Assembly: GCA_900316985.1 (NCBI GenBank) | Contig: ONFE01000002.1 | Location: forward strand, 1-64,000 | Length of the DNA: 64,000 bases | From: an uncultured Prevotellaceae bacterium | GTDB lineage: Bacteria; Bacteroidota; Bacteroidia; Bacteroidales; Bacteroidaceae | Direction of reading: 5' to 3' | Shown here: one piece after another, positions 22,526 through 30,647 of the stretch | How the letters are laid out: each line of letters opens with the position of its first letter | How positions within the stretch are numbered: the first letter of the stretch is position 1 | Program-made: the position numbers and the translations under genes | The notes under the pieces: generated by a model | Told to the model about the DNA's origin: nothing | The model's input: the letters and a program-made list of their open reading frames with translations, nothing else | Database searches by the model: none

Positions 22526-22599
22526 GGTTCCGTAGCTCAACTGAATAGAGCATCTGACTACGGATCAGAAGGTTGTGGGTTTGAATCCCGCCGGAATCA
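22526..22599 (+). tRNA. tRNA-Arg (anticodon ACG)
   Basis: A full cloverleaf of 74 nt. The acceptor GGTTCCG pairs with CGGAATC (one G-U). The D-arm is GCTC/GAGC. The anticodon stem is TCTGA/TCAGA around the loop CTACGGA, giving anticodon ACG at 22560-22562. The T-arm is GTGGG/CCCGC with loop TTTGAAT. The discriminator is A and CCA is not encoded. The A34 is expected to be edited to inosine by TadA so that it reads CGU, CGC and CGA. A promoter precedes it and a terminator follows. Confidence 0.96.
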
Positions 22600-22610
22600 C
22601 AAAGCATCGA

Positions 22611-22870: not shown

Positions 22871-23410
22871 TTATTTGAAAATTGCCACGGTGGCAATCAT
22901 CGTCACAATGCTGCAGATGGTTACCAACGGAATACAGATGGCAAGCATCACGCGAAGCCAAGTTGGTATGCGGTTCTGGCGTTCCTGAGCAGCATCACGG
23001 CGCTGGTCAATACGGCGGATCATATTGTTTACGTTCTCTACCAACTGCCAGTTGTACTGCTCCATCTTGTTGACAAGCACATCCAGCTTATGAGGCATTT
23101 CAGCCATGTCGTCCAGTCGCTCTGCAATGGAAGGGTAAGCCTTCACCTGCTTGTCGAACTGTGTTTTCATCGTTTTGCTAACGTCGATGAAAGCATCGCG
23201 CTCCTCATTGATGATGTCCTTGAAAGCCTCGCTCTGCTCCACAATCTGGCGCTTTAGTTCGGTGATACTATAATAAGAGGTGTCCTTCACGTCCTTCAAC
23301 GCTTCACGAAGGGCATTGTCGCTTTCGCCTAGTTCCTTTGCAATCTCTTGTTTGTGGCGACGGAAGAAGTCGCGTATCTCTATCAGTACTTCCAGTTCTT
23401 CTTTTTCCAT
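22871..23410 (-). CDS. Coiled-coil protein with C-terminal membrane anchor (cytoskeleton-like operon, gene 6)
   Basis: A 179-residue protein of unknown family. It is helical and charged through about residue 145 (IEIRDFFRRHKQEIAKELG, then ERDAFIDVSKTMKTQFDKQV), with a predicted coiled coil, and ends in one hydrophobic segment (about 148-176, LRVMLAICIPLVTICSIVTM). The layout is that of a tail-anchored protein with its bulk in the cytoplasm. I start it at the ATG at 23410, 10 bp after the previous gene; the longer open frame to 23446 would overlap that gene. It is the last of six tightly spaced genes. Confidence 0.8.
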   Translation of the reverse strand: MEKEELEVLIEIRDFFRRHKQEIAKELGESDNALREALKDVKDTSYYSITELKRQIVEQSEAFKDIINEERDAFIDVSKTMKTQFDKQVKAYPSIAERLDDMAEMPHKLDVLVNKMEQYNWQLVENVNNMIRRIDQRRDAAQERQNRIPTWLRVMLAICIPLVTICSIVTMIATVAIFK

Positions 23411-23420
23411 TCTATATGTG

Positions 23421-24038
23421 TTATTTCTGCATTTGGAGTTCTGCACGGGCAGTTACCACCCAGTAGTTGTTCTGTTTCTTTACCTGTCCCTTGCTCTTCA
23501 GTTGGAATCCGCGGGCTTCCTTCAACGGACATCCATCATAGCGGATTACACCCTCAATGGCCGGAAGTGATTTCAGACGCATCAGGTCGATGGGTTCAAA
23601 CTCTGCTTCCGTCGTAGAGAGATAGTGCACGCTGAAGAAACATTCATCACGCAACTCGTCATATTGGTCATTGAAAAGTGCAGCCTCAGCATCGCCCTTC
23701 GGTGCTCCGAAGAATCCGTCCTTTGGTATTTTCGGGGTTACTGGCTTCGGCGCAAATGAAGGACCGGCATTATTGGCACTCACAGAAGCTGCAATGCGGA
23801 TGGGACGCTCCAATTTGTCAATGCGGGCTTTCAGCTCTTTAAGTGTTTCGGAAGCATCTGTTTCACGCTGAAGGTCAACCACCGTTTTGCGTAGTGCACG
23901 GATGGTGTCGTCAGTTTCCTCGGTCAGGTGTTCGGTTTCCTTCTTGAATTTCTGGAGGTCGATGAAGGATTTGATTGACAGGAAGAGTCCTGTCAGCGCA
24001 ATGATGAGAATAATGCTGATGAAAACGGGATCGTTCAT
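23421..24038 (-). CDS. N-terminally anchored coiled-coil protein (cytoskeleton-like operon, gene 5)
   Basis: A 205-residue protein of unknown family. One membrane helix at about 5-24 is followed by a coiled coil at about 30-80 (KKETEHLTEETDDTIRALRK and TLKELKARIDKLERP). A Pro-rich linker (about 90-112) leads to a small globular domain (about 118-205). It follows the large actin-like gene by 9 bp and precedes the tail-anchored protein by 10 bp. With gene 6 it would place two helical rods at the inner membrane, a plausible scaffold for the filament-type proteins upstream. Confidence 0.8.
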   Translation of the reverse strand: MNDPVFISIILIIALTGLFLSIKSFIDLQKFKKETEHLTEETDDTIRALRKTVVDLQRETDASETLKELKARIDKLERPIRIAASVSANNAGPSFAPKPVTPKIPKDGFFGAPKGDAEAALFNDQYDELRDECFFSVHYLSTTEAEFEPIDLMRLKSLPAIEGVIRYDGCPLKEARGFQLKSKGQVKKQNNYWVVTARAELQMQK

Positions 24039-24047
24039 ATTCTTTCG

Positions 24048-27000
24048 TTATTTGATGGCGTGGTAAATAGCATTGGAGAGTTCATGGATAGCTCCCTTGA
24101 GAGGATAGAAGAAGAGCGTTTCTTCCAAACGGTCCTCACCGTCACTTTCTTCGCGGCGCTGCTGGAGTCCCTTGCGGAGATAGGTGGCAATGTCCTTGTA
24201 GCATTCCGTACGGGCAATCTGAAGTGACTGCTTGGAAACGCCGAAGTTGGCATCAAAGTCAAAGGCATCATCAAGGTCCTTGAGTACAAAGTCATAGAAT
24301 GCCTTGATGGCTTCCACAGAACGGTTAATGTATTCCTCATCCACGTGGTCATAGGTGTCTTCCTTTGAAATGAAGTCAGGACCAAAGGCTTTCTTGATGA
24401 CAATCTTGTCACGGTCGTCGGTAACAATATCACCCAGCAGACCGCCCTTACAGGTGCTCTCCTTGGGGTTGGCACCACTTTCGAAACCAAGAATCTCCAG
24501 CTCCTTGTCATACTTGTGGCCTACCACCCGTTCAATAATCAGCTTGGTGAAAGCGGCCAACTGCTGTTCATCGGTGGTCAATACGGTAATCAGCTTCGAA
24601 CCGTTACCCGAGAATGAGATATGGCGCGGCATCTCAAGGTCTTTGGCCTTGATGATCTGTGCCACGTGATAGATGATGGCCGAATAGAAGAGAATGAAGA
24701 TTACTTTGAAGTTCTCGTCATCCTGTAGCATGTGGTTGAAATCCACATACTTGGAATCCAGTCCGCGAACCATAGAGTTCTCCTTTAGCGTGAAGAGGAA
24801 GGAAGCCATATTGGATGGCTGTACGTTGTTCTCGCTGTTGAATATGGAAAGGAGTTCTGTCAGTTTGTTGTCTGTCAGCACGCGGTGAATCTGTTCCTTA
24901 TAGCAGTCCACGATACCGTTTGACATATCCACGTCGGAGAATGAATTCTCAAAGACGGAGTTGGCAGCAAAACGGAAGGATGTCACGTATTGAATCTCTT
25001 TATCGCGTGCAAAAGCAATATCCGTAGTACCGCCACCGATATCCACGTTCACCAGATTGGTGGCGTTGGCATAGCGGCGGAAGAAATACTGGATAGGAGC
25101 AGCCGACTCCGACATGTTCGAAGTCTGCCCGCTTGCAAAGTATTTGTTGTATGCTGAATTCCAGGTCTCACGCAGGTTCTTCAGACGCTTTGGAGCCATA
25201 CTGATAGGATAGAACCACGTAATCTTGACACGCTGCAGATCACCCTGTTCAATCAGCACCTTGTTGCGAAGCATCAGCATTAATGTCTCCACATAACTCT
25301 CCATCACACGGAGCATTTCACCTTTTCCCCATTTGATGTTATAGATGTTGCGGTTATAGAGATAGGATTCGCGCTTGTCGTAGGTGAGCGGGATGTTCAC
25401 CAGTCCGAAAGGACGCACAATCTCATGCCACTTGGTGGTTTGGGCAGCTGAAAGAACCGTACGTGTAGGGAAGTGGAAATCGCTCTGCTGGCTGACGGCC
25501 AATGGCAGGAAATCGCGTTCCATCAACGACTGCTCTGCCAGGAGGTCATCCTGCAACTGACGGCCGTTGAACTGCAACATGGAAGGCGTGAAGAACTCGC
25601 TGTAAGGCTTCCCGATCTGTTCATAGGAGAACACCTGTGAGGTGGGACCGTTGTTCACACGATATTCAATATGAGTGTTAGAAGTTCCGAGGTCAATGGA
25701 GAAGTCGAAGGCATTGACACTCTGCTGCTCTTTGAAAAGCGGCACGATCACGCCAGTATTTCCCTCGGCATCCTCAATCTCAATATGGTCGAAGTTGTTG
25801 TTGGCAACCGTATAGTTCTCAGCCTTATAGTTGGCAGCACGATTCTGGTTGCGGCAGTCCATCTCCACATCGGCAATCTGCTGGTCACCCTTGAAGAACT
25901 TCAAGGCATAATTGCGTGAATAGGTGGATATGCAACTCACGGTATAGAGGGCATCCTGCTCCTGACGGAAACGGATGAGCGGCATGACAAAGCCGGCAAA
26001 GTCAAACTCGCGCATTCCTCCGATATTGTGCTGTGGGTCAGCCTCATTCTCTCCATAGAAATTGCGGGAATACTCCACATATTTATTCCTTGAACGGCTC
26101 TTCACGGGAATACGGAGCGTAACCTTCACGGAACCGCCTGCCAGACGCTCCATCTCGAACATAGGCGATCCATCCACCATTGGCTGCATCAGGTCGTCCA
26201 CGTCAAAGTATTTGAAGAAGAGCGGTTTCAACGGCAAAAGGTAGCTCATCTTCTCGTCGCCCAACTCAATGCTTCCGTCGAAATATTCCTTATTGTTCAG
26301 CTTATGGGGAACACGGACAATGTTGTCCTGCATTAAGTCGCCGATAGTGATATAGGCACGGATGGAACCGTCGAAGGGAAGTTCACGCTTGGTGAGATCC
26401 TGTTCTTCAACTACACAAGGAGCAGAGTTAATCTTGCCCCATGTATCGGTGACATAGAGCATGTCACGATAGCGGTTGCCGGAATCGATAGGAAGAACGA
26501 GCGGAATGATGTCAGCATCCTTTTTGGTGTCAATTACGAAGTCACTCTCATTGCCGTTATTGGCTACCGAACGCTTCAGCAAGGGATAGCCAAGCACTTC
26601 CACCGTGTTGTTCTGACCATCGGTACGAACCTCAATCTCCGAGAGTTGGCGGGTGTCTGATTCCGTCAATGAACGCAGTTGAGACTTGAGCGTGTTGTCG
26701 GTGATGGCACGCATGGTCAGTTTCAGGTATTCCTCCACTTCGGGGAAGCGTGTGGCAAAGTCGGGAATCGACTTGCGGAGGATAAACCAGAACTTGATGT
26801 ATTCCGAATCACGCTTGTAAAGCGGATAGTAATCATCGTCGAAAGGCGACGACTGACCGAAGTTCAGGCTTTGCGAGACATAGTCCAGTTTGTTGGCATT
26901 CGAGAAGAACACCGTAGCTGGTGATGTGGCGCCGATGATGTTCAGTTCATCGGGACCTTGAAGGAAGTTAAGCAGATAGACATTGTGCAAATCGCCGAAG

Positions 27001-27446
27001 TTATAAGCCTGGGCATCGCTCTGAAGATACTTCTCCAAAGCATCACCCAGATAACGATGACCGTCCATGTCGCTCTGCTTGAGCTGTTCAATCATCAGGG
27101 CAGAATCCCAGGGGATAATCTCTATCTTATTCTTGAACTTGTCGATATTGAAGAATATCTCGCCCACATCGAGTGCATCGCTGACCATCTTGTGGAAGAT
27201 CGTGGTTCCATCGAGGTCGGTCTCATGCGTCTTCTTATGCGGTGTGGTCACCATCTTGAAAGCATTCTTCACCAGGTCGATACGGGCAAAGGGAGAGGGA
27301 ATGCTCGTTATCTCATTCCTGGCCGAGGCGCCATCGGGATCATCGATGTTGTCGCGGTTGTTACTATTGTAGGGGAAGGTGGGACTCTCGTTCCAGTCGG
27401 TAAAGGTGGAGGCTCCTTCGGTATATAGTCGGAATATCTTTGACAT
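24048..27446 (-). CDS. Very large actin/Hsp70-like ATPase (cytoskeleton-like operon, gene 4)
   Basis: A 1132-residue protein whose C-terminal half (from about 580) has the actin/Hsp70 nucleotide-binding motifs in order. Phosphate-1 is FSIDLGTSNTHIEYRV near 585, phosphate-2 is VNVDIGGGTTDIAFA near 803, and the adenosine motif is ISFSGNGSKLITVL near 948. FTPSMLQFNG after phosphate-1 resembles the PS.V.F segment of Hsp70. The first 570 residues match nothing I know and contain many Asp/Asn-rich turns. There is no signal peptide or membrane helix, so it is cytoplasmic. It lies 28 bp after the tubulin-like gene. SrfB-type proteins are another large actin-like group that could be related; I cannot test this. 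Confidence 0.82.
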   Translation of the reverse strand: MSKIFRLYTEGASTFTDWNESPTFPYNSNNRDNIDDPDGASARNEITSIPSPFARIDLVKNAFKMVTTPHKKTHETDLDGTTIFHKMVSDALDVGEIFFNIDKFKNKIEIIPWDSALMIEQLKQSDMDGHRYLGDALEKYLQSDAQAYNFGDLHNVYLLNFLQGPDELNIIGATSPATVFFSNANKLDYVSQSLNFGQSSPFDDDYYPLYKRDSEYIKFWFILRKSIPDFATRFPEVEEYLKLTMRAITDNTLKSQLRSLTESDTRQLSEIEVRTDGQNNTVEVLGYPLLKRSVANNGNESDFVIDTKKDADIIPLVLPIDSGNRYRDMLYVTDTWGKINSAPCVVEEQDLTKRELPFDGSIRAYITIGDLMQDNIVRVPHKLNNKEYFDGSIELGDEKMSYLLPLKPLFFKYFDVDDLMQPMVDGSPMFEMERLAGGSVKVTLRIPVKSRSRNKYVEYSRNFYGENEADPQHNIGGMREFDFAGFVMPLIRFRQEQDALYTVSCISTYSRNYALKFFKGDQQIADVEMDCRNQNRAANYKAENYTVANNNFDHIEIEDAEGNTGVIVPLFKEQQSVNAFDFSIDLGTSNTHIEYRVNNGPTSQVFSYEQIGKPYSEFFTPSMLQFNGRQLQDDLLAEQSLMERDFLPLAVSQQSDFHFPTRTVLSAAQTTKWHEIVRPFGLVNIPLTYDKRESYLYNRNIYNIKWGKGEMLRVMESYVETLMLMLRNKVLIEQGDLQRVKITWFYPISMAPKRLKNLRETWNSAYNKYFASGQTSNMSESAAPIQYFFRRYANATNLVNVDIGGGTTDIAFARDKEIQYVTSFRFAANSVFENSFSDVDMSNGIVDCYKEQIHRVLTDNKLTELLSIFNSENNVQPSNMASFLFTLKENSMVRGLDSKYVDFNHMLQDDENFKVIFILFYSAIIYHVAQIIKAKDLEMPRHISFSGNGSKLITVLTTDEQQLAAFTKLIIERVVGHKYDKELEILGFESGANPKESTCKGGLLGDIVTDDRDKIVIKKAFGPDFISKEDTYDHVDEEYINRSVEAIKAFYDFVLKDLDDAFDFDANFGVSKQSLQIARTECYKDIATYLRKGLQQRREESDGEDRLEETLFFYPLKGAIHELSNAIYHAIK

Positions 27447-27474
27447 AGTCTTATTATCTGTTTTGCATCATTAC

Positions 27475-28872
27475 TCAAAATCCAAACTTCTCTTTGGCCA
27501 GCTGCGCCGTGGCTATGCTGTATGTCTCCAGCCAGCGACTTTCCTTATCGCCTTTGGCCTTCTTGACGGCATTGTTCAGACGGTCGTAGAAAAGGTTGTA
27601 ATTGGAAAGCATCGTGAAGAGCGACTTGGGCTTCTGACCTACGACGACATTGAACGGCTCATCTCCACAATCGAAATTGAAGAGGTCTAACGAACGCTTG
27701 TTGTCTTTCATTTCAGAGAGCCAGAGGCGATAGTCATCAAGGAACGACTTCAGGTTCTGCATAAAGGGCGCATTATAGAAGGCTTCATCGAAATTGCCAT
27801 TGTTGGCTGCAAGGTTCTTCTTGCTGATGAAGTCGAACTTATCGTGAACGCAGTTGGACATCAACATGAACTGAGTGAGCGGCATACGAAGCATGGCCGT
27901 CAGTTCGTCATAGAAGGAATCCATGTGAATGGTGCGATGGTTATCCTTCAGGCCGAGTTCCTTGTTCACGGCAGGTCCTTCGTGATGCTTGTTGGCAAAG
28001 TCGAAGGCTGCAGAGGCGGCCAGGAACTCGATGAGATGGGCAGAATTGCGCTGCTGGGTTCCTCCTTCATGGTTGGCATAGGTATTCGACATATTGTCAG
28101 CCAGGAAATAAAGCGCGTTGATCTGGTTGTTCTTCGAGATATTGTTCTCGTAATAAGCCAAAGCCGATTTTGCCTTGGAGATGAATGTCGAGGAATCAAT
28201 CTCGCTGTCCTCACTCTGTTCCAGTTTGAAGTAGGGCAGGATGGTAACGGCACCGATTTCGGCCTTGTTGATCAGGTCGTTGTTGGGGAAGGTATCACCC
28301 GTGCGGAGTGTTTTCAAAAGAAGCGGGAAACCGCTGGCACCCGTACCTCCGAAGATACTCGAAACGATGAATATCTTGTCGCCTTTTTCAAATGAGTTGG
28401 CGAAGGTGATGAAATCCTCAGAATTGACAATCTGGTTGAGCACCACACTACCGATGTTTGGATTACCCTTGAAACCAACGTTCATGCTGGAAGCCAGGTT
28501 CTTCTCGGAGAAAAGCATCCGCATCATCGCCTGGTTTTGCTTGTTCATGGCAGGCAGTTCGATGAATTGCTGGAACTGGCGGTCCTCCGTATCCTTAATC
28601 AGCAGGTTATAGTTAGGCAGAATCTGGTCAATCTTGGCCTTGAAAAACGTTCCCTGTCCTTTTTCCGGGAAGGTAAGATGCTGCCGAAGGTTGGCATACT
28701 TGTTCATCAGGGCAACGGTACGTGTCAGGTCAGCATTAGCCGAATCCGGGTCAATCACAATGGGAACTACATCGCTCTGACTGGTTTTCACACCAGCGGC
28801 AAGCATCATAGTCAGCGAACGGAGCACTCTTGAGCCAGTGCCACCGATTCCGAAAACATATAACTTAGACAA
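27475..28872 (-). CDS. Tubulin/FtsZ-like GTPase (cytoskeleton-like operon, gene 3)
   Basis: A 465-residue protein with tubulin-superfamily nucleotide motifs. The N-terminal loop FGIGGTGSRVLRSL (7-20) matches the T1 loop of FtsZ (GVGGxGxN). SSIFGGTGASGFPLLLKTLR (171-190) matches the G-box T4 loop (GGGTGTG) followed by its helix. A clear T7 catalytic loop (NxDxxD) is not evident. It looks like the group Pfam calls Tubulin_2, a call made from memory. It is not FtsZ, which is longer-conserved and lies in the division cluster. It sits 29 bp after a membrane-protein gene and 28 bp before the actin-like gene. Confidence 0.8.
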   Translation of the reverse strand: MSKLYVFGIGGTGSRVLRSLTMMLAAGVKTSQSDVVPIVIDPDSANADLTRTVALMNKYANLRQHLTFPEKGQGTFFKAKIDQILPNYNLLIKDTEDRQFQQFIELPAMNKQNQAMMRMLFSEKNLASSMNVGFKGNPNIGSVVLNQIVNSEDFITFANSFEKGDKIFIVSSIFGGTGASGFPLLLKTLRTGDTFPNNDLINKAEIGAVTILPYFKLEQSEDSEIDSSTFISKAKSALAYYENNISKNNQINALYFLADNMSNTYANHEGGTQQRNSAHLIEFLAASAAFDFANKHHEGPAVNKELGLKDNHRTIHMDSFYDELTAMLRMPLTQFMLMSNCVHDKFDFISKKNLAANNGNFDEAFYNAPFMQNLKSFLDDYRLWLSEMKDNKRSLDLFNFDCGDEPFNVVVGQKPKSLFTMLSNYNLFYDRLNNAVKKAKGDKESRWLETYSIATAQLAKEKFGF

Positions 28873-28901
28873 TTTCTTATTGAATTAAATATTTGACAAA
28901 A

Positions 28902-29360
28902 TTAGAATGGAGCACGAGGCACGTTCGTGCTTCCCCATTTGATGAGATAGGAAATGATCAGGAAGGCGATCATGGAGATAATCATATTGGCAAAGCCGAA
29001 ACTGATGCAATCGTTCTCCATAATACCTAAAGGCGTAAGTTGACCCGTGGTCTGATCCATTTTTTCCATCATACCGTCCAGCAGGTCACTCAACACCCAT
29101 CTCCAGCCGACCATGTAGTTGATCAGACCGTTGATCACAAGGAAAATGCCCCATCCCCACCAGTTGTTGAGTTTGGGATGATTGACGACGTAATAGAACA
29201 GTACGGCTACGAGTAGCGAAATGCCTAACATAACCAGACCGATCGTCAGAAACATATTTCCCTGCTGGCGTTCGGTAGCCTCGCCAGCCAGATAACTTGC
29301 CAGTTCCAGACCAAAGAGGTCATCAAAAAGGCAATAAACGGTAGTGAAAAATTCTCCCAT
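28902..29360 (-). CDS. Three-helix membrane protein (cytoskeleton-like operon, gene 2)
   Basis: A 152-residue integral membrane protein of unknown family. The clearest membrane segments are at about 36-58 (MFLTIGLVMLGISLLVAVLF), 69-90 and 121-142. The acidic loop between the second and third (about 92-118, SDLLDGMMEKMDQTTGQL) should lie on one side of the membrane. It follows the vWA-like gene by 10 bp and is a candidate membrane receptor for the filament-type proteins of the operon. Confidence 0.8.
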   Translation of the reverse strand: MGEFFTTVYCLFDDLFGLELASYLAGEATERQQGNMFLTIGLVMLGISLLVAVLFYYVVNHPKLNNWWGWGIFLVINGLINYMVGWRWVLSDLLDGMMEKMDQTTGQLTPLGIMENDCISFGFANMIISMIAFLIISYLIKWGSTNVPRAPF

Positions 29361-29370
29361 ATCCTTAAAA

Positions 29371-30576
29371 TTAATTCTTTACGATGTTAAACTTGATGTT
29401 CGTGAGCAGCTTGTCGTTCTTGTAGGCATCGGCAATACCACCGATGATATACTTGATGCCCGTGGTTTTTTCCAGGTTCTTGCGCACGTTCTTGCCCGTA
29501 TCGTCATTGACGGCATCCAGCCAGTTGGGTGTTTCCTGCTGGATAAGACGGAGTTGCTCGCCTGACGGATTCATCTTACCGTCGAGGTCGATGGTAAACA
29601 CGTGTGTATAGGGACTCTGCGTATCATCCATACGTTCTACGGCACCCACATTGACCGTGGCATTCTGAGTACGGTAGTTCTCCGGATTCATCACGTAGGC
29701 ATCATCCTGCAGGGTGGTGAGCAGATTGGCTTTCAGCTTCAGATGGCACTTCCCCTTGGCATCAGAGCGGCATTCCAGCATGTTCTTCCTGGCCACGCCG
29801 AACTCATTGGTCATGTCGAAATTGACGTCCTCGTAGGTCGTGAAAGCACAATAGTTGGCAATGCCGTGCTTCACTTCGCTGAAAGGAACGCGCTTGTTGA
29901 TTGAAGCCAGCACATCACGGTCTCCGATGACAAACATATAGTAAGGACGGCTCTGGCCTTCCAGCTCTTCGCCTCCTACGCTGTAATAGTACATTCCCTT
30001 GAAGTTGGACTTCAGGCGGAAAATCTCCACGCTCAGGTTCTTCAGCTTATTGCGATACTTGGTGAAGGCATTGCGGATGTCAATCTGACGGTTGATGAAG
30101 AAGTTGTTGGCCTGTCCTTCAGGCACGTCGAGGATACAGTCGCTGACGAAGACGCTGATGGTATTCTTGCCCTGTACGGACAGCATCATTTCCATCATCT
30201 GGGCGATGTCTGAGTTGGCACGGCTTCCACCGGCTTTCTTGAAGCTTTCAGGATTCATGTCGCTGATGAAACTCTTCATCGAACCGTTATACGGAATGAT
30301 TTGCGAATTGATGAAATGCAGCTGCGGCTTGCCGTTGGAATAACTAGCCAGGCTGCTTACGTAGCTGTAAACGGCATCTTTGAGCTGTGAACCGTCGCCC
30401 ATATAGCCGTCCATACTGCCTGAATTCTCAATATAGACCTTGATTTGGGGAGTTGACACAGGCAGTTCCTTCTTCACCGTTTCCCATTTCACGATAAGGT
30501 TGTGCTCACGTGGAATGAGCATATAGACAATCAGCAAGAGAACCACTAAAGTGGCGGGAATAATAACTTTTTTCAT
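29371..30576 (-). CDS. Membrane-anchored vWA-like protein (cytoskeleton-like operon, gene 1)
   Basis: A 401-residue protein with an N-terminal membrane helix (about 4-22) and then a von Willebrand A-like domain (about 45-230). The metal-site (MIDAS) motif reads E50-N-S52-G-S54, with Glu where Asp is usual. S118-R-A-N-S122-D123 and VFVSDC (Ser145-Asp146) stand in for the second and third MIDAS loops. The C-terminal 170 residues look beta-rich and are unassigned. The bulk is probably periplasmic. I start at the ATG at 30576; the frame is open to 30621, but that would overlap the promoter. It is the first gene of the operon. Confidence 0.8.
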   Translation of the reverse strand: MKKVIIPATLVVLLLIVYMLIPREHNLIVKWETVKKELPVSTPQIKVYIENSGSMDGYMGDGSQLKDAVYSYVSSLASYSNGKPQLHFINSQIIPYNGSMKSFISDMNPESFKKAGGSRANSDIAQMMEMMLSVQGKNTISVFVSDCILDVPEGQANNFFINRQIDIRNAFTKYRNKLKNLSVEIFRLKSNFKGMYYYSVGGEELEGQSRPYYMFVIGDRDVLASINKRVPFSEVKHGIANYCAFTTYEDVNFDMTNEFGVARKNMLECRSDAKGKCHLKLKANLLTTLQDDAYVMNPENYRTQNATVNVGAVERMDDTQSPYTHVFTIDLDGKMNPSGEQLRLIQQETPNWLDAVNDDTGKNVRKNLEKTTGIKYIIGGIADAYKNDKLLTNIKFNIVKN

Positions 30577-30598: not shown

Positions 30599-30606
30599 CA
30601 AAAGTA
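30599..30606 (-). promoter_or_regulatory. -7 promoter box of the cytoskeleton-like operon
   Basis: TACTTTTG on the minus strand, 22 bp before the ATG of the vWA-like gene. A hairpin (30631-30647) separates it from the upstream TPR gene, so the six-gene operon appears to have its own transcription start. Confidence 0.55.
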
Positions 30607-30623: not shown

Positions 30624-30647
30624 CAAGAAAAGATAACTATGTTATCT
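30624..30647 (-). terminator. Hairpin between the TPR gene and the vWA operon
   Basis: On the minus strand AGATAAC (30647-30641), a 3-nt loop, GTTATCT (30637-30631), then TTTCTT. The stem is only 7 bp and AT-rich, so it is a weak terminator candidate for the ftsK-to-TPR unit. Confidence 0.4.

Follow-up and report, generated by a model that had tools for sequence, protein, structure and literature searches.

A Tubulin-like and a Giant Actin/Hsp70-type Protein in a Membrane-associated Operon of an Uncultured Prevotellaceae Bacterium

To our knowledge, tubulin-fold and actin-fold proteins have seldom been reported as dedicated partners outside cell division. What might a bacterium do, then, with an operon that appears to encode one of each among several membrane proteins? 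The question is raised by a 64,000-nucleotide stretch of DNA (the window; forward positions 1–64,000 of contig ONFE01000002.1, assembly GCA_900316985.1) from an uncultured Prevotellaceae bacterium, in which six open reading frames (ORFs) lie on the minus strand at 22871–30576. A preliminary description of this DNA had reported a compact operon there; all six ORFs were found at their positions, forming a single tight unit with gaps of 9–29 bp. Its tubulin-like protein (Tub) and its giant, putatively actin-like protein (Act) have intact nucleotide-binding motifs and, as judged by alignments and profiles, are co-conserved with a vWA-like protein that is either a membrane protein or a lipoprotein and, mostly, with a small membrane protein. 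We tentatively read the operon as encoding a nucleotide-driven machine of the envelope that is anchored in the inner membrane, is related to FtsZl1/vWA systems, and would work as a Zorya-type switch with a tubulin/actin relay, and put the probability of this reading at roughly 45%.

The genes, in operon order, and the motifs within them are as follows:

29371–30576, minus strand: vWA-like protein, 401 aa, with an N-terminal membrane anchor and a MIDAS-like motif, ENSGSM, presumably on the periplasmic side (ORF and 21-sequence alignment)
28902–29360, minus strand: TM3, small integral membrane protein, 152 aa (ORF, Kyte-Doolittle, HMM)
27475–28872, minus strand: Tub, tubulin-like protein of the FtsZl1/Tubulin_2 kind, 465 aa (PF13809 and alignment)
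28828–28845, minus strand: T1-like loop GGTGSR, Tub residues 10–15 (G10, G11, G13, and R15 invariant, n = 24)
28336–28359, minus strand: T4-like loop SIFGGTGA, Tub residues 172–179 (S172, F174, G175, G176, T177, G178, and A179 invariant, n = 24)
24048–27446, minus strand: Act, giant putative actin/Hsp70-fold protein, 1132 aa (ORF, alignment, profile matches)
25674–25697, minus strand: phosphate-1 motif IDLGTSNT, Act residues 584–591 (D585, G587, T588, and T591 invariant, n = 20)
25020–25043, minus strand: phosphate-2 motif DIGGGTTD, Act residues 802–809 (D802–G806 and D809 invariant, n = 20; MreB/Hsp70 profile match)
24594–24614, minus strand: adenosine motif FSGNGSK, Act residues 945–951 (G947 and G949 invariant, n = 20)
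23421–24038, minus strand: CC1, 205 aa, with an N-terminal transmembrane (TM) segment, a coil, and a conserved C-terminal domain of ∼80 aa (19 proteins aligned, including a cyanobacterial one from L065)
22871–23410 (or from GTG 23446), minus strand: CC2, 179 aa (191 from the GTG), coiled coil and C-terminal TM segment, read as the probable remnant tail of a ZorA/MotA-like stator

Consecutive genes are 10, 9, 28, 29, and 10 bp apart if CC2 begins at ATG 23410, a start conserved in L004/L005 (L-numbers denote surveyed loci and G-numbers surveyed genomes, G000 being the window's own); the upstream GTG 23446 would give a 26-bp overlap with CC1.

Nucleotide-binding proteins Tub and Act

Tub had been described as tubulin-like with T1 and T4 loops, and this was borne out. 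It scored 29.0 bits against PF13809 (Tubulin_2), which passes the Pfam cut-off of 27, whereas its match to PF00091 (E 2.6e-5) reached 25.0 bits and stayed below the cut-off of 33. Counted per member at E ≤ 0.01 instead of the curated cut-off, PF13809 matched 19 and PF00091 17 of the 24 aligned Tub sequences. All 24 sequences, the most distant of them 21% identical to the window protein, share the GGxGxR residues near the N terminus and the FGGTGA loop without change, and E282 is nearly invariant. When a Tub profile was run against PDB chains, the best match (E 0.02, at the T4 loop) was to 3zid, which we take to be of the CetZ type. The T7 catalytic loop (NxDxxD) was not recognized by eye in the alignment of 24, and the Pfam scan found no FtsZ_C (PF12327) in Tub or its aligned relatives. 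Alignment with FtsZ placed GNPNIG...IFGGTGASGFP on GADPxIG...GGGTGTGGAP; an earlier hhalign run, for which the FtsZ set included wrong ORFs, scored 16.5 and was not significant. Because the FtsZ profile match barely exceeds those of shuffled sequences, Tub is placed outside FtsZ proper, and by these profiles it belongs to the divergent FtsZl1/Tubulin_2 branch. Two FtsZ_C matches occur on other contigs of the same genome (G000:C48:10470-10760 and G000:C107:50496-50795), so that the genome may have a second FtsZ or the assembly may include a contig of foreign origin (contamination estimate 4.13%).

Act carries the phosphate-1, phosphate-2, and adenosine motifs in the expected order, within the last ∼550 of its 1132 residues. 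The motif residues listed above were invariant in 20 Act sequences, to 21% identity, as were the connect-1-like residues E780 and P784; the actin/Hsp70 motifs ascribed to this protein in the preliminary description are thus well founded. Against Pfam, Act scored 24.8 bits with Ppx-GppA (cut-off 27) and 16.2 bits with FtsA (cut-off 31.8), and Ppx-GppA was matched by 7 of the 20 aligned sequences. An Act profile matched the PDB chains of MreB (E 0.002) and Hsc70 (E 0.0045) around phosphate-2. With hhalign, the C-terminal half scored 41.7 against MreB (probability 44%) and 41.8 against HSP70 (36%), far above the maxima of 20 shuffles each (18.6 and 22.4, respectively) and the control scores for FtsZ (16.6) and ExbB (15.2); the MreB, HSP70, and ExbB sets were used as collected, without cleaning of ORFs. 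The whole protein scored 60.7 against Hsp70 versus 41.4 against MreB, and the N-terminal ∼575 residues matched none of the four profiles tried. As judged by motifs and profiles, the C-terminal half of Act probably belongs to the actin/Hsp70 superfamily.

Co-conserved membrane partners and the stator link

We mapped 39 loci, 31 through Tub and 8 (L168–L175) through Act, leaving aside fragments, near-duplicates, and loci with unfetched flanks (L002, L003, L005, L032, L035, L059, L062–L064, L066, and G291); gene presence was counted within the fetched stretch only, and gene order was taken from maps. Tub and Act were found in all 39 (Act as a fragment in L046), the vWA-like protein in 37 (the vWA profile matched in 34, and a second profile matched the gene at the corresponding position in L055, L056, and L061), TM3 in 30 (HMM), CC1 in 26 (iterated profile), CC2 of any length in 18, long CC2 in 16, and a ZorB-like protein in 16. 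The co-conservation envisaged for the six genes therefore holds for the near-constant Tub, Act, and vWA-like proteins but not equally for all six. In L055, L056, and L061, a distant variant, a 439–511-aa protein in the vWA place is followed by a small ORF, Tub, an Act-like protein of 1128–1387 aa, and another large ORF (678–884 aa).

The vWA-like protein does possess the membrane anchor given in its first description, at the N terminus, along with a MIDAS-like motif. It had no Pfam or NCBIfam match, and the vWA assignment is by that motif only. The pattern [D/E]xSGS was present in 25 of 31 vWA-like sequences; the canonical DxSGS, with Asp, was seen only in L053 and L054, the other 23 motif-bearing sequences, including that of the window, having Glu. 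In 24 of 31 sequences, a loose pattern picked out a lipobox-like N-terminal Cys, some of these calls being doubtful where starts are uncertain (L044, L045), and a plausible Cys was visible by eye in L036, L038, and L169, which the pattern missed. The window and L004 proteins have no such Cys and start with a plain TM helix. With a lipobox-like Cys or an N-terminal TM helix, the vWA protein would be located in the periplasm. TM3, reported as a three-helix protein, showed two clear TM segments in the window but three to four in four relatives (Kyte-Doolittle); most maps of loci without a TM3 match carry another small ORF before Tub.

CC1 and CC2 had been portrayed as two anchored rods. Both are membrane proteins, but they differ in kind, CC1 carrying a conserved domain and CC2 what appears to be a stator tail. 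A TM segment was present in 9 of 12 CC1 proteins checked and absent in L034, L042, and L054 (Kyte-Doolittle). The 26 CC1 loci include three, L049, L050, and L052, in which the iterated profile matched a CC1-type domain at the C terminus of Act; these three are near-identical, so that independent counts are lower. Single-sequence support came from L033 only (E 9e-6) among three tried. The C-terminal domain of CC1 would be cytoplasmic, and its occurrence at the end of Act hints that CC1 may bind Act.

The long CC2 proteins (453–599 aa, with a long C-terminal coil) and the ZorB-like genes occur together in their 16 loci, never one without the other. Three N-terminal TM segments were found in 10 of 10 long CC2 proteins checked, the second with the consensus PxYxGLMGTxxG. 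At this segment, a profile built from 10 of 13 aligned rows, with the window clade excluded, scored 36.2 against ExbB/TolQ (probability 24%), compared with ≤15.7 for 20 shuffles and ≤22.7 for unrelated families. The PADLOC model of ZorA was matched by three of five long CC2 proteins (L033, L036, and L051) at 4e-7 to 1e-5. The ZorB-like protein, encoded by the gene after the stator, has one N-terminal TM segment, a motif like FWxSYxDLMT, and, by eye, an OmpA-like end (NQRFLIHI), for which Pfam gave no OmpA match; the two proteins scanned matched ZorB1 (L038, 7e-13; L048, 4.7e-6). The membrane Asp is kept in 13 of 16. Gly takes its place (FWPAFVGLLT) at L049:3300-3950, L050:14268-14918, and L052:2212-2862, where the motor perhaps no longer conducts ions.

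The window operon has no ZorB-like ORF, and its CC2 has only a C-terminal TM segment. This CC2 aligned with residues 324–490 of the L033 stator, C-terminal TM segment included (blastp E 2e-14), at 56.6 bits, or 50.1 bits without that segment; two sets of 500 heptad-block shuffles reached maxima of 27.7 and 29.6 bits. The ZorA matches of the window CC2 itself (1.8e-4) fall in the coiled coil region and were not used as evidence. Both trees place L033, which has the full motor, as sister to the window clade (support 0.70 and 0.82); the branch after that, L034, lacks CC2. An apparent loss of CC1 and CC2 in the closest relative was rejected, antisense ORFs having been taken in their place. Compared with L002 and L004, the dN/dS values of CC2 were 0.016 and 0.047, like those of Tub and Act, and therefore the tail is not decaying; values for the vWA-like protein, TM3, Tub, Act, and CC2 together spanned 0.015–0.081, and CC1 was too diverged for a dS estimate. 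Window CC2 is probably the C-terminal remnant of a ZorA/MotA-like stator. The simplest account would be that the window's ancestor lost the motor half together with ZorB and that the tail was kept under purifying selection, and the best reading of the link to a ZorAB-like stator is that it is ancestral or repeated.

Spread and surroundings of the operon

The distribution is patchy: among 201 genomes surveyed in the family, 25 have relatives of Tub. The Act profile had some match in 334 of 395 genomes of the phylum, but among the matches listed only nine were long (G000, G447, G366, G584, G556, G272, G568, G216, and G291, the last at a contig end); in a tenth genome, G507, the match was short (E 1e-11), yet a divergent operon is present there at locus L175. 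An Act family in 334 genomes was rejected, as the other listed matches are short and lie around phosphate-2, which would be consistent with DnaK, MreB, FtsA, or Ppx. Tub also occurs on six plasmid records, five cyanobacterial and one from Prevotella. In the cyanobacterial plasmid loci L065 and L067, a vWA-like gene (on the opposite strand in L067) and a small membrane protein precede Tub, and Act follows. L065, on a Picosynechococcus plasmid, adjoins an alternate F1F0 ATPase cluster; three consecutive proteins of this locus seem, as judged by eye, to end in a CC1-type domain. A phage-borne element was rejected, since Tub had no match in 50,697 phage records; five IMG/VR loci carry relatives but need not be viral.

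The operon was originally credited with its own −7 box and a hairpin. Sequences of both kinds are present upstream:

30599–30606, minus strand: candidate −7 promoter element TACTTTTG, ahead of the vWA start codon (ATG, 30576)
30632–30646, no strand assigned: perfect inverted repeat GATAAC-TAT-GTTATC

The element TACTTTTG fits what we take to be the Bacteroidota −7 consensus, but in a sigma-70 scan promoter-like and terminator-like sites were not clearly in excess over shuffles. Farther upstream on the same strand are genes for a TPR protein, an M64 peptidase, proteins presumed from their sequences to be HPPK-like and LolA-like, and FtsK; on the other side lie tRNA-Arg(acg) (22526–22600), a glycine-transporter-family protein, and RarA/MgsA. 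We rejected the M64 peptidase and TPR protein as operon members because the pair also occurs in the L197, L200, and L201 stretches, which have no operon.

Within the genus of the window, Tub versions are 97, 60, 41, and 40% identical to the window's, the last two belonging to another clade, and G192 carries two different systems. L200, from the same genus, keeps the M64-TPR ... tRNA-Arg ... RarA neighborhood with no operon at that site (a statement about this locus only). These divergent versions and the site without the operon suggest that the operon was likely gained and lost. Between TPR and tRNA-Arg, L200:3090-5368 contains other minus-strand ORFs (160, 500, and 83 aa), so this position next to a tRNA could be a variable slot.

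Some loci carry accessory enzymes. A trypsin-like gene follows the ZorB-like gene in L033, L036, and L037, and L053 has one without ZorB (called by Pfam for L037 only and by profile for the other three). An Endonuclease_NS gene is present in L048 and L058, separated from the ZorB-like gene by one intervening gene; gaps from the ZorB-like gene onward are −8 to 12 bp, and the nuclease gene starts 2 and 12 bp, respectively, after the preceding gene. Such enzymes follow at least 5 of the 16 stator pairs, the downstream genes having been partly scanned; the window operon itself encodes no effector of either type. DUF4357 proteins lie directly 3′ of the ZorB-like gene at L051:15903-17327 and L058:16908-18407. 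For 103 of 210 neighboring proteins, Pfam matches were mainly metabolic or housekeeping among the 25 of 127 families listed, and strong PADLOC matches (25 of 49 families listed) were to a single type II methyltransferase, restriction enzyme, RtcR, or FtsK/RmuC-like proteins. Neither these listed PADLOC families nor the six operon products included ZorC, ZorD, or ZorE. A defense island was rejected, with no recurring defense system among the listed matches of the 103 neighbors, for which there were no control neighborhoods.

Possible functions and known systems

In an envelope machine of the type proposed here, the vWA protein, joined by the ZorB-like protein in motor-bearing relatives, would sense conditions in the periplasm or wall. 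The signal would cross the inner membrane by way of TM3, CC1, and the stator tail, with the C-terminal domain of CC1 docking on the actin-like ATPase, and the Act ATPase and Tub GTPase would together switch an output as an NTP-dependent assembly. The output could be the trypsin-like protease or Endonuclease_NS nuclease in some relatives; with none in its operon, the window lineage would have an envelope-sensing switch that operates without an ion motor.

Several points weigh against this proposal. It draws on sequence, and its sensing and switching steps are inference. Act passes no curated family cut-off in the Pfam scan, Tub scored 28.2 against the profile of 16 cleaned FtsZ proteins when the maximum of 40 shuffles was 26.8, and the CC1-Act fusion comes from an iterated profile. 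Among the long CC2 proteins, that of L048 matched JetC better than ZorA (0.005), that of L049 matched only LmuB in PADLOC, in the coil, and not ZorA, and Pfam MotA_ExbB matched neither of the two scanned. Nine other stators aligned with window CC2 at 17.7–25.8 bits, within the shuffle range, so the tail link comes from L033 alone. The stator is absent from the window and from 23 of the 39 loci; the motor is therefore not needed for function here. The operon may, though less likely than not, represent an undescribed class of envelope machine, in which an ion-driven ZorAB/MotAB-type stator is linked by its cytoplasmic tail to the Tub GTPase and Act ATPase under a periplasmic vWA sensor, the tail being kept after loss of the motor. 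If the tail was indeed kept and selected, it would itself be the docking part.

The alternative that survives best, though we consider it unlikely, is a conflict system directed against phages or other invaders, in which crossing a threshold set by the envelope sensor and the NTPase assembly would bring in a nuclease or protease effector, or a factor encoded outside the operon, to stop the invader. The kinship of the stator to Zorya, the trypsin-like and Endonuclease_NS genes, the patchy spread, the divergent versions within one genus, and the relative with the same flanks and no operon would all fit, as would the tubulin+vWA and HSP70 variants of GTPase-centered conflict systems and the pairing of NucA (Endonuclease NS) with trypsin described in the available text of Kaur et al. 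2020 (PMC7159879). However, the neighbors are mostly metabolic or housekeeping genes with no recurring defense system among those listed, the window operon has no effector, Tub is unmatched in the phage records, and, among the downstream genes scanned, such enzymes follow only 5 of the 16 stator pairs.

Distinctly unlikely, in our estimation, is a second cytoskeleton or membrane-remodeling apparatus in which Tub-like and Act-like filaments would bend or scaffold the inner membrane. The tubulin and actin folds suggested by the profiles, the membrane anchors, and vWA and OmpA-like partners such as those reported with FtsZl1 (PMC2875224) agree with it, but the T7 catalytic loop is not recognized in Tub, and a scaffold alone leaves the stator tail and the variable enzymes unexplained. 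A chaperone relay, with Act as an Hsp70-type folding or quality-control ATPase that maintains envelope proteins, is very improbable: the C-terminal half of Act is as close to Hsp70 as to MreB, the whole protein favors Hsp70, and vWA domains are described as co-chaperones in MoxR systems (PMC7159879, available text), but no substrate-binding domain, DnaJ, or GrpE was recognized above Pfam or NCBIfam cut-offs, and the 575-aa N-terminal half of Act matches none of the four profiles.

Returning to the proposed envelope machine, the findings confirm and extend what the preliminary description observed and lend partial support to its interpretation. A tubulin-like and an actin-like protein tied to a MotAB/Zorya-type stator would offer a testable scheme in which NTP-driven assemblies receive input from ion flow or from signals in the periplasm. 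The natural series of full stator (L033), tail only (window), and none (L034) is a ready-made experiment on the long stator tail, and the FtsZl1 family, a remodeling candidate since 2010, gains a concrete set of partners in Bacteroidota.

The closest published relatives are the FtsZl1/vWA/OmpA operons for which Makarova and Koonin (2010) proposed membrane remodeling (PMC2875224). The preliminary description was right that the locus follows their logic: Tub passes Tubulin_2, a vWA-like gene is its neighbor, the distribution is patchy, and 16 of 39 loci have a ZorB-like partner with an OmpA-like end (by eye). The published alignment of FtsZl1 includes a member from Bacteroides caccae, and in that family, too, the T7 loop is not recognizable. 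In contrast to the paper's example of 1051 aa with a long coiled coil, Tub has 465 aa in the window and 463–600 aa in relatives and, as judged by length, would lack the extended coiled coil and helical C-terminal domain; this difference is not decisive because those features are ascribed there to the majority of members. Among the six products, Pfam matched no P-loop GTPase, a frequent neighbor of FtsZl1, and no kinase. The window system adds the giant, putatively actin/Hsp70-fold protein, and the available text of PMC2875224 mentions no actin-like partner and no MotB; Act may be one of the unnamed families (A1–A2, B1–B9) of those authors.

The GAP1-N2 systems (PMC7159879, available text) resemble the operon in combining tubulin and vWA near the membrane in one theme and in using HSP70 in another, whereas here tubulin-like and HSP70-like proteins stand together, and Pfam recognized neither the GAP1 TRAFAC GTPase nor an FNIII protein in the operon. 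The likeness to ftsA-ftsZ lies in the pairing of putative actin-fold and tubulin-fold proteins as operon neighbors; as first supposed, the operon is distinct from it, since Tub lacks FtsZ_C and is barely alignable to FtsZ, and the FtsZ_C genes lie elsewhere in the genome. No description of a tubulin+actin+stator combination was found among the open PMC papers listed (titles, abstract starts, and passages). The core of Zorya differs from the vWA-TM3-tubulin-actin core seen here, in which no ZorC, ZorD, or ZorE was found, and in the window locus the tail-like part stands alone, with ZorB missing, so a Zorya-type stator is lacking there and present in relatives (16 of 39). Those relatives have a ZorA-like protein with three TM segments and a long C-terminal coil, together with a ZorB-like protein that has the membrane Asp, and the ZorA tail is reported to matter for Zorya function (PMC11890865, available text). 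The system is thus not a Zorya system, but it is somewhat Zorya-like in how it would work.

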